Origin: Candidatus Woesearchaeota archaeon
GTDB lineage: Archaea > Nanobdellota > Nanobdellia > Woesearchaeales > SKIA01
DNA length: 37,199 bases
Direction: 5' to 3'
NCBI GenBank assembly: GCA_007117065.1
Contig: SKHI01000020.1
Span: 1-37,199, forward strand
In this document: piece by piece, positions 8,504 to 14,681 of the stretch
Layout of the letters: each line of letters starts with the position of its first letter
How positions within the stretch are numbered: the stretch's first letter is position 1
Notes under the pieces: generated by a model
Databases searched by the model: none
Told to the model about the DNA's origin: nothing
What the model saw: only the letters and a program-made list of their open reading frames with translations
Program-made: the position numbers and the translations under genes

Positions 8504-10246
8504 TTATTTCGTATAATATAAGGAACCACTGGCCTTCTGCTCCTTATCTTTCACGCTGCCCAACTTGTTAATTCTTGGTCTGCCGGAATCTTCATCTCGT
8601 CTAAAGGTGACTGCTAAATCGTGTAAGAATATGTTCATTCCGTCTCGCATGGTAAACGGTCCCTTAGCATGACCGGAAATAGCCGGTTTTCCATCAAAAA
8701 CAATGAGGCGCTCTGATAAATAATCGATAAACAAGAGATCGTGATCAACAACAAGGCATGCTTTACCCTTAGCATCCATCATTTCACGAATGATTTTTGA
8801 CATTCGCAATCGTTGCTCAACGTCAAGATAAGCAGAAGGTTCATCAAGTAAAAACAAATCTGCGTCTTCTGCAAGTTTTTTTGCAATAACCACGCGCTGT
8901 AATTGTCCGCCAGAAAGCTCTGAGAGCATGCGCTCAAACAAAGGCTCAAGTTCTAAAGGTTTAATGAGTTGTTGTTGATAGCGCATTGCTTCAGAGAGAT
9001 ACGTCATGACTAATTGATCATCAGGAGTGAGGTATTGCGGTTTATGACTTATTTGTAACTCTCCCCGTTTAGTTTCTGCTTCAATTTTTGCAAGCTCAGA
9101 TACGTAAGTCGTCTTTCCAATACCGTTCTCTCCTAAAATACCAATAATATCATGCGTGTGGATAAGTCCCTTATCAGCTTGTAATGAAAAAGAACCTTTT
9201 GTAACACCAAACGAGTCCCACGCACAAAGCTCGCTATCGCGCTCAAGGTGGTCGGGAGCAACCTGATCAAAAGTGATTGCAGAATCGCGAAAACGCATGT
9301 TTTCATCGGGTAAGAATCCAGAAAGATACATATTAATGCCGTTTTTAGTGCTTTTAGGCTTACTAATAATTCCGTACGCGTTCTCTTTACCATACACAAT
9401 ATGCACCAAATCAGTAAGATAATCAAGAACAATTAAATCGTGCTCTATAACGAGAACAGATACTCCTTCTTGAGCTAAAGAGCGTAAAAAATGACTTATT
9501 TTAATTCGCTGCTTAATATCGAGGTAACTCGTGGGTTCATCAAAAATATAGAGTGAAGCATCACGAGAAGCAGCAGCGACAAGAGCAACCCGTTGTAACT
9601 CTCCTCCACTAATAGAAGAAATATCGCGGTCTAAGATGGCTTCTAATTCGAATAATTCTATTAACGAAGAAAGAACTTTTCTCTCATCGACGCGTTCTAG
9701 TAATGCTCGAACGGAACCGGAGAACTGCTTAGGAATCAGTTCTACTTGCTGAGGCTTAAAAGATACCTTAATTTTTCCATCCCGCAATAACTCAAAATGT
9801 CGCTGCATTTCAGAACCACGAAAATGATTGATTAAGTCTTCATAAGACGCTGCAGAGGAGGACTTTAGATTTGGTTTTAATAATCCAGAAAGAATTTTTA
9901 CAGCAGTACTTTTTCCAATACCGTTACGCCCTAACAAACCTACAACCTTGCCAGGAATAGGCGTAGGCAGGTTAAATAGTTGAAACCCTGATTCTCCGTA
10001 TTTATGAATGGGTGTTTCGTTAAAGGCCTCAGGAAGGTTCACAATTGTAATGGCGTTTGTAGGGCATTTTTTAGGACAAATACCGCATCCAATACACATG
10101 CTCTCAATAATCTTTGCTTTTCCGTCTTCGCCCTCATAAACGCATTCTTCGCCTGCTTTATTGATGGGACAGACTTTAGCACAGTATAATCCGCCACAAC
10201 GCGTCTGATTACATTTATCAGCTTCAACTACGGCAATACGAGACAT
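8504..10246 (-). CDS. ABCE1/Rli1 ribosome-recycling ATPase
   Basis: 580 residues. Soluble twin-ATPase that splits ribosomes after termination and aids re-initiation. The N-terminal ferredoxin-like domain carries two 4Fe-4S ligand sets, CNQTRCGGLYCAKVCP and CIGCGICPKKCP. NBD1 has Walker A GRNGIGKST, signature SGGELQR and Walker B FDEPTS. NBD2 has GENGIGKTT, SGGQLQR and LLDEPSA. The hinge regions and typical length are intact. The ATG at 10246 is chosen over the upstream in-frame GTG (10267), because a TATA box (minus-strand TTTTTAAAC, 10268-10276) is centred 26 nt before it. The DUF1461 gene follows 2 nt after the stop. The gene is divergent from the unknown gene at 10323. Confidence 0.95.
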   Translation of the reverse strand: MSRIAVVEADKCNQTRCGGLYCAKVCPINKAGEECVYEGEDGKAKIIESMCIGCGICPKKCPTNAITIVNLPEAFNETPIHKYGESGFQLFNLPTPIPGKVVGLLGRNGIGKSTAVKILSGLLKPNLKSSSAASYEDLINHFRGSEMQRHFELLRDGKIKVSFKPQQVELIPKQFSGSVRALLERVDERKVLSSLIELFELEAILDRDISSISGGELQRVALVAAASRDASLYIFDEPTSYLDIKQRIKISHFLRSLAQEGVSVLVIEHDLIVLDYLTDLVHIVYGKENAYGIISKPKSTKNGINMYLSGFLPDENMRFRDSAITFDQVAPDHLERDSELCAWDSFGVTKGSFSLQADKGLIHTHDIIGILGENGIGKTTYVSELAKIEAETKRGELQISHKPQYLTPDDQLVMTYLSEAMRYQQQLIKPLELEPLFERMLSELSGGQLQRVVIAKKLAEDADLFLLDEPSAYLDVEQRLRMSKIIREMMDAKGKACLVVDHDLLFIDYLSERLIVFDGKPAISGHAKGPFTMRDGMNIFLHDLAVTFRRDEDSGRPRINKLGSVKDKEQKASGSLYYTK

Positions 10247-10267
10247 AACAGACAGAGAGTGAAGCAC

Positions 10268-10302
10268 GTTTAAAAAGATGTGTCTTCAATACAGATATAA
10301 AG
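10268..10302. promoter_or_regulatory. Divergent promoters of ABCE1 (minus) and the unknown gene at 10323 (plus)
   Basis: The minus-strand TATA TTTTTAAAC (10268-10276) is 26 nt from the ABCE1 ATG. The plus-strand TATA GATATAAAG (10294-10302) is 25 nt from the ATG at 10323. The boxes lie back to back within 35 nt, so the two transcription units may compete or be co-regulated. Confidence 0.5.
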
Positions 10303-10322
10303 AAGTTCTTTTTTACTCTTGC

Positions 10323-11069
10323 ATGGTTGTACACAAACCACTCTTATTTATTCCTGCATACGGTGGGGAATTGGCTGGCGAACGTCTGGAGCAAATCACT
10401 CTTTTTACGGATGATGTAAAAGATTTTAATTCGTTTTTTAACCTGGTGAGAAAGTATAGAATGTCTTTGTCACAGCAGCCAATATACTCAGTACCAGTAT
10501 ATGACGAAAAGACGCTAGCAAGGTTAGGTAACCCAAGCGGTTTTTTACCAACACCTCGTTTTTATCATATCTCGCGTCCAGTAAGTGATATATCTTTCAT
10601 CGCGGAAGCATACGGCCAGGACCTTCAGTACAAGCTCACTTCAGCTCCCTTCTCTGCAGTCAGAGACGAATATGCTCGCTCAAACATCGCAGCAAGAGCG
10701 TTTCAATCAGAAAAACCCGAAGAGCAGTATTTCGCGTTCGTATTAACAATTGCCGAACCAATCATACGCTATTTGGAATACCGTGAAGAAACAAAAGATA
10801 TTTATTACTCGAGACATGAAAAGAAAATACAAGCAAAGGTACGAGATCAACTTTTTTCGCGATTGCATAACTGGTCGGACGTGGTAAGTAAGTCGACATA
10901 TACTGATCCAGCGCTGGAGTTGATACAACAATTACTAGATGATACTGCATCGCTAGAGTCTAAGGTAGTATCTATTTTAGAATTTCCGTTTACGTACATC
11001 CCTCGGCAAATTGCTTCAGTTAACTATTTTGCCCAGCAAAAAAATGTATTGGAAGATAAACATAAATAA
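10323..11069 (+). CDS. Hypothetical protein, 248 aa, upstream of PolB
   Basis: Family not recognised. A soluble, mixed alpha/beta-looking protein with no signal peptide or membrane helix. The first half contains PLLFIPAYGGELAGERLEQ and FLPTPRFYHISRP. The second half is mainly charged helices (about 120-215), with a dibasic stretch SRHEKKIQAKVRDQL. The ATG at 10323 is supported by the TATA box at 10294-10302; an in-frame ATG at 10278 would precede that promoter. The stop falls 22 nt before the GTG I use for the polymerase, and the same strand suggests, but does not show, a shared role in DNA metabolism. Confidence 0.65.
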   Translation: MVVHKPLLFIPAYGGELAGERLEQITLFTDDVKDFNSFFNLVRKYRMSLSQQPIYSVPVYDEKTLARLGNPSGFLPTPRFYHISRPVSDISFIAEAYGQDLQYKLTSAPFSAVRDEYARSNIAARAFQSEKPEEQYFAFVLTIAEPIIRYLEYREETKDIYYSRHEKKIQAKVRDQLFSRLHNWSDVVSKSTYTDPALELIQQLLDDTASLESKVVSILEFPFTYIPRQIASVNYFAQQKNVLEDKHK

Positions 11070-11091: not shown

Positions 11092-13410
11092 GTGGAAGAA
11101 GGATTTATCCTATGGATGGGAACTGAAGAGCAAGAGGGGAGGGTTCCTGTAGCGCGTTATATTGCAAAACTCTCAGATGAAACAACAGCAGAAATACGTA
11201 TAGAACAAAAACCGTATTTTTACGTAGAAGAAGAGCACGCAAAAGAACTAACAACAAACGAGTTATCGATAGAAAAAGAAATAACATCATTACAAACACT
11301 CACAAGAAAACCAGTAACAAAACTAATCTGTCAAAACGAAACACACAGAAATGAGATACGAAAAATACTTGGAGAAAGAAACATACCCTCTCACGAAGCA
11401 GATATACGTCTACCATACAGAGTGCTCATACAACAAGAAACAGGAGTAGCAGTAAAGATATCAGGAGCGCGAACACCAGGAACGTATACGGAATGGGTGT
11501 ATACAAACCCTGTTCTTTTAGCAAGCACACAAGACACAACAAAATTATCAATACTCTCCATAGACATAGAAACGAATAAAGACGCAACAGAAATATGGAG
11601 TGTGGCATTGTCTACAAAAACAACAACACACGCGATAATACTGAACAGAACGACCACGAAAGCAACAACGGTAACAACTGAAAAAGAACTTCTTACGCAA
11701 TTAAACGAACGCATACAACAAATAAATCCAGATATCATAACAGGATGGAATGTTATTGACTTCGATTTGGCAGTTTTACAAAAAAAATATCGTGCATACG
11801 ACATACCAATGAATTGGGGGCGAGACGAGACGCCAGTAAAACTGCGTCTAGAAAGTGACTATCTCAAAGAAAGCACAGCAGAAATAACGGGTCGCGCAGT
11901 ACTTGATGGAATACACTTATTACGAACAAATTTTGTAGATCTTGATAACTTTCAACTAGAAACTGCTGCGCAACACTACCTAGGAAAAGGAAAACTGTTT
12001 ACCGGAGAAAACCGTTTTGAACATATAGAAGAAAACTATAATCAGAATCCTGAAGAACTCATACGCTACAACATACAAGACGCCCAACTTGTTCTGGACA
12101 TATTAGAGAAAAGCAACACTTTAGCACTCACGAAAAAAAGAAGCTTTCTTACTGGAATGCCCCTGCAACGCGTGCAAGCAAGCATCGCAAGTTTGGACAT
12201 GGTATACTTGCCAAAACTGCATAAAAAAGGATTTGTAGCACCAAGTACGGGATGGATGAATAAGAGCGAGCCAATAACAGGAGGATTTGTGATGGAAAGT
12301 AAACCAGGAATATACGATAACATCATCGTATGCGATTTCAAAAGTCTCTATCCAAGCATCATACGAACACTAAACATAGATCCTCTGAGTTATGATGCAT
12401 CACAAGAACTCAAAGAGAGTACAGAGAACTATGTGCGAGCAGAAAACGGTGCATGTTTTAGGCAAGAACAAGGAATACTTCCAGAAATACTTGCTGTACT
12501 CTGGGACGAACGAGCGAATGCAACAAAGAATGGAGATCAACTCGCACGCTTTGCAATAAAAATACTTATGAATAGCTTTTTTGGAGTTCTTGCAAGTCCA
12601 AACTGCCGATTCTTTAGTATGGCAGTAGCAAACGCAATAACAACAACAGGACAACACCTCATACAAACAGCAGCAGAACACATACGCGCTCTTGGATATG
12701 AGGTGATTTATTCTGACACTGACTCAGTATTCATGAACCCCTGCATTCTTGATTCAGGACGCGCACAAGAAATAGGTGAAGAAATTCAACAAGAAATAAA
12801 CACGTTTTTTACAGAATACGCTCGTAAGCGATACGCCTCAGAGAGTAAACTAGAACTAGAATTCGAAAAATTATATGTGCGCTTTCTCATGCCACACACA
12901 CGAGGAGGTGCAGGAAGTAAAAAGCGATACGCAGGACTTCTTGTACGCGGAGAAGAAAAAAAAATAGATGTTACAGGATTAGAAATCGTGCGCAGAGACT
13001 GGACTGCACTTGCAAAAGAATTTCAACAACGAATGCTAGAAATTATCTTTGATAACCAACAACCACACGAATTCATAAAAACATATGTACAAGAGGTGCG
13101 TGCAGGAAAAAAAGACGACCTTCTCATATACATAAAAGCGCTTCGAAAAAATGTAGACTCATATACAAAAACAACACCTCCTCACGTAAAAGCAGCACGC
13201 TTATTAGATAAAATAACAGACAATCTTATTTCATACGTCATGACAGTAAATGGCCCAGAGCCGATACAAAAAACCACGCATAGCATAGATTACGAGCACT
13301 ATATAGAAAAACAACTCAAGCCAATAGCAGACGGAATATTGGTGTTTTATGATACAACTTTTTCTGACGTGCTTAAAGGAACCTCCCAGAAAGGACTTTT
13401 TGATTTCTAA
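11092..13410 (+). CDS. polB: Family B DNA polymerase of the bacterial Pol II type
   Basis: 772 residues. DNA polymerase with 3'-5' proofreading. Exo I is DIET (D158, E160), exo II WNVIDFD (D225) and exo III YNIQD (Y326, D330). Pol motif A is DFKSLYPSII (D415), motif B KILMNSFFGVL and motif C YSDTDS (D542, D544). From the opening GFIL to LDYEHY-like SIDYEHYIEKQLKPIADGIL near the end, it follows E. coli Pol II rather than standard archaeal PolB1. This includes GSKKRYAGL, GLEIVRRDWT and TPPHVKAARL. The last seven residues QKGLFDF fit a PCNA-interacting (PIP) box. The GTG at 11092 places the GFIL start as in Pol II and has a TATA-like TAAATAAAC about 27 nt upstream. An ATG at 11044 would overlap the preceding gene. 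No intein is present. Confidence 0.92.
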   Translation: MEEGFILWMGTEEQEGRVPVARYIAKLSDETTAEIRIEQKPYFYVEEEHAKELTTNELSIEKEITSLQTLTRKPVTKLICQNETHRNEIRKILGERNIPSHEADIRLPYRVLIQQETGVAVKISGARTPGTYTEWVYTNPVLLASTQDTTKLSILSIDIETNKDATEIWSVALSTKTTTHAIILNRTTTKATTVTTEKELLTQLNERIQQINPDIITGWNVIDFDLAVLQKKYRAYDIPMNWGRDETPVKLRLESDYLKESTAEITGRAVLDGIHLLRTNFVDLDNFQLETAAQHYLGKGKLFTGENRFEHIEENYNQNPEELIRYNIQDAQLVLDILEKSNTLALTKKRSFLTGMPLQRVQASIASLDMVYLPKLHKKGFVAPSTGWMNKSEPITGGFVMESKPGIYDNIIVCDFKSLYPSIIRTLNIDPLSYDASQELKESTENYVRAENGACFRQEQGILPEILAVLWDERANATKNGDQLARFAIKILMNSFFGVLASPNCRFFSMAVANAITTTGQHLIQTAAEHIRALGYEVIYSDTDSVFMNPCILDSGRAQEIGEEIQQEINTFFTEYARKRYASESKLELEFEKLYVRFLMPHTRGGAGSKKRYAGLLVRGEEKKIDVTGLEIVRRDWTALAKEFQQRMLEIIFDNQQPHEFIKTYVQEVRAGKKDDLLIYIKALRKNVDSYTKTTPPHVKAARLLDKITDNLISYVMTVNGPEPIQKTTHSIDYEHYIEKQLKPIADGILVFYDTTFSDVLKGTSQKGLFDF

Positions 13411-13676
13411 ATGAATTGCACATAGCCAGCACTTTTTTTGATCAGATTATCTTTAACCAGATCAGCAATGAGGTCGGCTGCCTGACGCTCATCAATACCA
13501 ACCATTTCACACTCTAAAAAAATAGCTTCTATCTGAACAGGCTTAGCAGACTTTCCTGCGAGCTCATGGATGATATTAAGAACAGAAATTTTATCATCAA
13601 CGCGCTGTTCTTGAACGATGCGTTTACTCATCATTTGTTGAACACGCATAATCTCATCAAAACTTTTTTCGTCCAT
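13407..13676 (-). CDS. Short winged-helix protein resembling the MCM C-terminal domain
   Basis: 89 residues. The N-terminal helix (DEKSFDEIMRVQQMMSKR) is followed by a winged helix-turn-helix: ISVLNIIHELAGKSAKPVQIE, IDERQAADLIADLVKDN, then LIKKSAGYVQFI. Its layout resembles the wHTH at the C-terminus of archaeal MCM helicases, but no ATPase part is present. Role unknown: DNA-binding regulator or replication accessory are possible. The ATG at 13676 is chosen over a TTG at 13700 because a weak TATA is centred about 26 nt upstream of it. It converges with PolB, with stop codons overlapping by 4 nt. Confidence 0.65.
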   Translation of the reverse strand: MDEKSFDEIMRVQQMMSKRIVQEQRVDDKISVLNIIHELAGKSAKPVQIEAIFLECEMVGIDERQAADLIADLVKDNLIKKSAGYVQFI

Positions 13677-13778
13677 ATGTGTAGAGCTATTATGTAGCAA
13701 TTATGCTGGTAATATGCTTTTTCCCCAAAAGAGTATAGTATAATGTATATTTAATAGCTTCGAAAAAAGAGCTTTAAT

Positions 13779-13919: not shown

Positions 13920-14681
13920 ATGTTACGAAACACCTTCTGTCATCTGCCCCGAATGGGACAAAAATCAGAGGAGAACTTATGGAAAGCAGGAGTGCACACA
14001 TGGACTGATTTTATTCAACGAGAATTAGTTCCTGGAATAAATCCTGCCAGAAAACCACTTTTTGACATACAATTACGAGAAGCAGAAAAACAGCTCTTTG
14101 CAGGAAACAGCGAATATTTTACTGTGCTGCCAAGTAACGAGCAATGGAGAGCTTGGGAGGAGTTCGGAGAAGAAGCTGCATATATAGACATAGAAACAAA
14201 CCATCAAAACAATATAACTGTGCTTGGAATAAGCGACGGAGTGCGTACATGGCAATTCGTGCGTCATCATAATATGAATCAAGAAGATATTCGTGAAGTA
14301 CTTAAACAGTTCAAGCTACTGGTAACGTTTAATGGAGCCTGCTTTGACTTACCTATTATTCGCAGATACTTCACACATGTCCTTCCTGATGTACCGCACA
14401 TAGACCTTCGTTTTGTAGGACAAAAAATAGGTTTGCGAGGAGGACTAAAGCACATAGAAAAATCAATAGGCATTTCAAGAGGAGAAAACGTCGAGGATGT
14501 TCGTGGAAGTGACGCGCTTATATTATGGAGTCAGTACCGGCGAACGGGCAACACCCAGTTCAGAGATATTCTTCTTGAATACAACGCAGAAGATATACTA
14601 AACCTCAAACCATTAGCAGAGTATATGTATGCAAAAATTAAAGCAGAAAAAACAAAGTACATAAAAACAAGTACTGTTTAG
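13920..14681 (+). CDS. YprB-like RNase H-fold exonuclease (RNase_H_2)
   Basis: 253 residues. The N-terminal region (MLRNTFCHLPRMGQKSEENLW, then the WTDFI helix) is the usual lead-in of YprB-type proteins. The 3'-5' exonuclease-like RNase H fold follows, with acidic residues in YIDIET (D90, E92), TFNGACFDLP (D143), HIDLRF (D162) and YNAEDILNL near the C-terminus. Family members are predicted nucleases; the substrate is not established. It lies on the same strand as the Pol II-like gene and is followed after 7 nt by two small membrane-protein genes. The length is complete for the short form, without an attached helicase or TPR domain. Confidence 0.82.
   Translation: MLRNTFCHLPRMGQKSEENLWKAGVHTWTDFIQRELVPGINPARKPLFDIQLREAEKQLFAGNSEYFTVLPSNEQWRAWEEFGEEAAYIDIETNHQNNITVLGISDGVRTWQFVRHHNMNQEDIREVLKQFKLLVTFNGACFDLPIIRRYFTHVLPDVPHIDLRFVGQKIGLRGGLKHIEKSIGISRGENVEDVRGSDALILWSQYRRTGNTQFRDILLEYNAEDILNLKPLAEYMYAKIKAEKTKYIKTSTV

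Follow-up and report, generated by a model that had tools for sequence, protein, structure and literature searches.

Genes and features of the polymerase locus

The window, the whole 37,199-nucleotide stretch of DNA analysed here, is one contig (C34) of a 907-kb genome that is 97% complete. Its named relatives are Woesearchaeota, Pacearchaeota, and Nanoarchaeota; these relatives and the gene for RLI/ABCE1 beside the polymerase region identify the organism as a DPANN archaeon. The region contains the following features:

8504..10267, minus strand: RLI/ABCE1 ribosome-recycling ATPase, divergent from the next two genes
10278..11069, plus strand: ORF of 263 aa with no Pfam or NCBIfam match, same strand as the polymerase
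11092..13410, plus strand: Pol II-type (B7) family B DNA polymerase, 772 aa, GTG start at 11092, stop at 13410
11557..11574, plus strand: Exo I motif SIDIET of the 3'-5' proofreading exonuclease
11743..11766, plus strand: Exo II motif GWNVIDFD, containing the GWN signature of the PolII-like clade
12067..12090, plus strand: Exo III motif YNIQDAQL
12334..12363, plus strand: polymerase motif A, DFKSLYPSII
12559..12585, plus strand: polymerase motif B, KILMNSFFG
12709..12726, plus strand: polymerase motif C, YSDTDS, an intein site in several relatives
13387..13407, plus strand: C-terminal PIP-type tail QKGLFDF
13407..13700, minus strand: small winged-helix-like ORF of 97 aa with sub-threshold MCM_C similarity, convergent with the polymerase

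The 263-aa ORF is possibly co-transcribed with the polymerase. RLI/ABCE1 lies divergently upstream of the polymerase in 15 of the 96 archaeal relatives that have at least 700 nt of upstream sequence, and relatives of the 97-aa ORF are found downstream, in the same orientation, at 17 other loci. Just 3' of the polymerase region (13920-14681), the window encodes an RNase H-fold exonuclease-like protein (PF13482), with homologues close to the polymerase at four or more related loci (L021, L123, L124, and L138).

The polymerase frame is uninterrupted from the GTG to the stop, and the coordinates of the original prediction are correct. The start region V(M)-E-E-G-F-I-L aligns with the N-terminus of homologues (MKGFI..). 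An in-frame ATG at 11044 was judged less likely, as starting there would lengthen the protein by 16 residues and run 26 nt into the upstream gene; given this overlap and the homologue alignment, the GTG at 11092 is the better candidate and probably the true start.

Identity and fold of the polymerase

The NCBIfam model NF004421 (DNA polymerase II) matches residues 2-770 with 760.2 bits, above its cut-off of 570 bits, which places the protein in the Pol II family over its full length. The best sequence match in the PDB is E. coli Pol II (448 bits), the best archaeal PolB scoring 170 bits. The AlphaFold model (mean pLDDT 89) likewise has its best fold match in E. coli Pol II (TM 0.92; about 0.81 for KOD-type PolBs). 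In the trees the protein falls with bacterial Pol II and the Pol II-type enzymes of other DPANN archaea and away from archaeal PolB, and neither the trees nor the sequence and fold matches join it to archaeal PolB1 or PolB3. The proposal that it follows E. coli Pol II along its whole length, rather than archaeal PolB1, is thereby borne out. The exonuclease and polymerase residues had also been described as all present, and indeed the full set of Exo I-III and Pol A-C motifs is intact. GWN in Exo II is a signature of the PolII-like PolB clade (PMC7544198), within which Kazlauskas et al. 2020 (PMC7544198) named the archaeal group B7. This group and its presence in these archaea are already known, and the window protein is a member. 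We have good confidence in the overall reading of the ORF as an archaeal B7 enzyme, a B-family polymerase with full catalytic and proofreading capacity, a PIP-type tail, and a PolB-like role.

Inteins interrupt the gene at motif C (YGD/S...HN/TDS) in the relatives L175, L096, and L111, and apparently also in L171, a genome of the same genus as the window organism, where the gene lies at a contig end. Inspection of motif C found no intein in the window copy.

The C-terminal tail

The polymerase ends in TSQKGLFDF, and residues 765-772 are predicted to be disordered (pLDDT below 50). The consensus peptides are QL[S/D]LF for the bacterial beta clamp and Qxx[I/L/M]xxF[F/Y] for PCNA (PMC3716654). 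QKGLFDF has Q at +1, a residue of the I/L/M class at +4, and an aromatic residue at +7, and stands at the protein terminus; it differs from the beta-clamp motif by K at +2 and two extra residues. The original prediction of a PIP box is thus upheld, with the qualification that the textbook second aromatic (+8) is missing, as the protein stops at +7. The same is true of 76 of 107 archaeal B7 proteins.

Among archaeal homologues with readable ends, 96 of 107 carry Q..[LIMV]..[FYW] within the last 14 residues; shuffled tails match the pattern at about 2-3%, so the PIP-type tail is conserved beyond chance. The motif therefore survives the comparison with close relatives, in which its absence had been named as the observation that would count against it. 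None of 51 bacterial Pol IIs has a true PIP-type tail. The sole bacterial match to the regular expression (L085) is a coincidence of register, its tail really being ..QPQLGLF. A Fisher test of the archaeal against the bacterial tails, uncorrected for kinship, gives p 4e-29. Over the 171 rows of the tree the +7 state changes only three times (as we read it, with the bacteria, in a Pacearchaeota-like clade, and in L168, once each), so the association of tail and host domain is a clade-level one and does not represent 158 independent events.

The position profiles show what the two kinds of tail share and where they part. Both have Q at +1 and L at +4, and many also have F at +5 (71/106 archaeal and 28/41 bacterial tails); the F at +5 is not part of the PIP consensus, and its presence in both makes it probable that the tails are homologous. 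Position +2 is mostly polar (K/T/S) in archaeal tails and I/L/Y/M/F in bacterial ones; +7 is F/Y/W in 96 of 106 archaeal tails, and 38 of 41 alignable bacterial tails end after +5. Eight of the 10 archaeal tails without the +7 aromatic belong to the one Pacearchaeota-like clade (L049-L054, L150, and L158), and seven of these eight end in KQ(T/A)KLF or RQTKLF. The tails of this clade also lack the bulky +2 residue of the bacterial motifs. PIP tails are found, too, at the end of 19 of 20 sampled DPANN archaeal PolBs (L176-L195). The PIP-type tail is thus present in about 90% of archaeal B7 enzymes and in none of the bacterial Pol IIs, which we believe to be new; our search of the open-access literature, subscription papers lying outside its coverage, found no description of a group-wide PIP-type tail in B7.

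One PCNA was detected in the genome, on contig 29, close in sequence to Pyrococcus-type PCNAs, and no DnaN (beta clamp) was found in the 97% complete assembly. The FEN1 of the genome (TIGR03674, 417 bits) ends in SSQKGLAEFF, near-identical in form to the polymerase tail. A genome-wide search with the PIP pattern at the DNA level did no better than its control (3 versus 4 sites), and its use was limited to locating FEN1. We infer that the disordered C-terminus of the polymerase is a PCNA-interacting peptide.

Other DNA polymerases in the genome and the phylum

B7 is present in 95 of 279 genomes of the phylum, spread over 36 families; another PolB is present in 172 (167 of them without B7), and 17 genomes have neither. 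The 172 were called by score, and 20 of them were read. B7 and another PolB occur together in five genomes, compared with 58.6 expected if the two were independent; an individual genome may hold a PolB that the NF004421 screen missed, and members of one family do not count as independent. PolD DP2 was found in 270 of the 279 genomes. From the near-exclusion of B7 and PolB and the near universality of DP2, B7 usually replaces PolB and not PolD, and it seems to have taken the place of the usual archaeal PolB. Two of the five genomes with B7 and a full PolB belong to one family (f11), in which three other genomes have B7 alone; genomes with both look like intermediate states.

The original prediction called for a search of the genome for other polymerases. 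PolD is present, and no B-family polymerase other than the one in the window was found intact. The large subunit of PolD is encoded on contig C40, at the contig edge and split by an insertion (TIGR00354). Its apparent absence in a PF03833 search was an effect of the contig edge, as TIGR00354 matches DP2 there. About 1.4 kb, in one open frame, separates the two matched parts (L114 and L115), and the insertion is probably an intein. The further B-family enzyme of the genome, on contig C37 (L002:562-2580, 672 aa), is degenerate: EIDFSSMFPWI and KGVLVSSYGY stand in place of motifs A and B, motif C is GIVDS with the first catalytic Asp replaced, and the exonuclease motif is not recognisable. It ends in NTLTQYFS, which is PIP-like without the Q. 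This enzyme could share or regulate the role of B7. Low-scoring degenerate PolBs occur in several other B7 genomes as well.

DP2 is missing from seven B7 genomes, and six of these lack DP1 also. At 13 of the 14 loci examined (L211-L224), DP1 and DP2 sit together with an Orc1-like gene as a conserved block; where neither PolD subunit was detected, one non-B7 genome included, that Orc1 is missing too. As the three genes form one block in relatives and the six genomes also lack Orc1, the absence of the two subunits is explained by one missing stretch. We do not claim PolD-free genomes with B7 as the sole replicase.

Function

Taken as a whole, the best explanation, which we regard as probable, is that the window protein is a B7 member with a predicted PCNA-binding tail and serves as a stand-in for PolB beside PolD. 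The disordered C-terminal peptide would dock in the hydrophobic pocket of PCNA and tether the polymerase to the ring, analogous to the attachment of E. coli Pol II to the beta clamp through QLGLF. So tethered, B7 would most likely do the work of archaeal PolB (gap filling and lagging-strand and repair synthesis), taking the place of the usual PolB beside PolD across the phylum and not acting merely as an SOS-type translesion enzyme. That the tail is instead an inherited clamp-like remnant, with no selected partner and no functional PIP, is very improbable; such a remnant would fit the single aromatic of the tail, which is missing in some relatives, but roughly 90% of the enzymes, at only 40-50% identity to the window protein, keep Q, L, and the aromatic in a tail that is otherwise disordered. 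The main functional rival is a purely translesion role, in which B7, like E. coli Pol II, would chiefly be induced for translesion and repair synthesis and would not stand in for PolB. The closest characterised relative, E. coli Pol II, is indeed a translesion enzyme (PMC7544198, PMC12926913). However, the near-exclusion of other PolBs in the 279 genomes is what replacement predicts and not what an accessory enzyme predicts, and we consider this rival unlikely. In most genomes with B7 it stands beside PolD in the place of the ordinary PolB, so the label of repair polymerase, which the original prediction had used, is unproven.

Origin and direction of the clamp change

The bacteria in the trees came from five phyla only (Gemmatimonadota, Spirochaetota, Bdellovibrionota, Ignavibacteriota, and Beta- and Gammaproteobacteria). 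In three trees they form one clade (100/98) with B7 outside it, and the base of B7 is left open; monophyly and paraphyly of B7 are indistinguishable (AU p 0.49-0.50). Nesting of B7 with Spirochaetota/Bdellovibrionota/Ignavibacteriota or with Pseudomonadota was rejected (p-AU 0.001 and 0.0008); branching after Gemmatimonadota was not (AU p 0.29). We take B7 to be the archaeal sister group of bacterial Pol II, or something close to it. A Nanoarchaeales MAG (L102) encodes a very divergent Pol II-type enzyme with 36% identity and the tail QTSLSAFF, and the placement of this long branch bears on the direction of transfer. Among phages, the relatives are T4-like enzymes (about 24% identity) and three records resembling Pol II (30-38% identity) that look host-derived.

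The published tree nests archaeal B7 inside bacterial G1, which implies transfer from bacteria (PMC7544198). An ancestral DPANN archaeon would then have acquired a bacterial Pol II, and QLxLF would have become a PIP box by losing the bulky +2 residue and gaining two residues, the last of them aromatic. The shared F at +5, by which the tails are probably homologous, is consistent with such a history, as is the non-rejection of a position after Gemmatimonadota in the AU test. Against it, the published nesting was not recovered in our trees with their five bacterial phyla, the two deeper nestings were rejected, and PIP tails already occur in the two B5 outgroups (L201 and L209; Methanomethylovorans RQKSLFEY and halovirus HF1 SQTGLAAFC) as well as in the archaeal PolBs; we find this history quite possible without calling it probable. 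Because the two outgroups have PIP tails, the reverse polarity is at least as economical. A PCNA-type archaeal or viral ancestor would have given rise to bacterial Pol II by loss of the last two residues and gain of a bulky +2, the B7 tail being the older. The B5 tail RQKSLFEY is almost a B7 tail, the +7 state needs only 2-3 changes, the Pacearchaeota-like clade is an example of loss of the +7 residue, and B7 lies outside the bacterial clade in every tree here. This polarity is contradicted by the published tree, and the bacterial sampling behind it covers five phyla; the basal branching of B7 is open and L102 is a long branch, and if B7 is a plain sister clade, which is equally likely, the topology is silent on direction. 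We hold it as a tentative possibility in which the bacterial beta-clamp motif may be the derived state. The fuller scenario, in which bacterial Pol II came from a PCNA-dependent archaeal or viral polymerase near B7, its beta-clamp motif is a shortened PIP, and B7 displaced PolB in about a third of the phylum and works on PCNA beside PolD, seems to us rather doubtful as a whole.

The original prediction of a bacterial-type polymerase adapted to PCNA stands as regards the Pol II type, the PIP tail, and the presence of PCNA without a beta clamp; the direction of the change is unsettled, with the sampled bacteria forming one clade without B7. Similarly, the phylogeny it proposed sets the protein apart from archaeal PolB and with bacterial Pol II, but not inside the sampled bacterial clade.

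Clamp tails thus separate cleanly along the archaeal-bacterial divide within a single polymerase family, a small natural experiment in clamp change that comes down to position +2 and two terminal residues. Peptide binding allows a direct comparison of these two tails with the KQTKLF form of the one archaeal clade. With PolD constant, the rarity of genomes that have both B7 and PolB suggests that a Pol II-type enzyme can fill the archaeal PolB role, and the replacement bears on what PolB does in archaea that replicate with PolD.

Comparison with known systems

The window protein shares with the B7 group as described (PMC7544198) the PolII-like clade, with GWN in Exo II, and DPANN hosts of the Woesearchaeota/Pacearchaeota type; the main text of that paper contains no mention of PCNA or a PIP box, and its nesting in G1 is not reproduced here. 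With E. coli Pol II (PolB, group G1), homology extends over the full length (about 34% identity by BLAST, TM 0.92), with the same exonuclease and polymerase motifs and a C-terminal clamp peptide in both. The E. coli tail is QLGLF, for which mutation has demonstrated binding to the beta-clamp groove (PMC5731819), whereas QKGLFDF has a polar +2 and an aromatic +7. Archaeal PolB3-type enzymes (KOD, Pfu, and the sampled DPANN ones) are likewise proofreading B-family polymerases, and nearly all the sampled DPANN ones have the PIP tail noted above, but they form a separate branch in all trees, have 24-29% identity to the window protein, and occur mostly in genomes without B7; the DPANN ones are labelled B3 by presumption, and could be B1. 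The B5 PolBs of methanogens and haloviruses also belong to the PolII-like clade and have PIP-type tails, as B7 does, but stand on long separate branches, the two sampled being plasmid- and virus-encoded.
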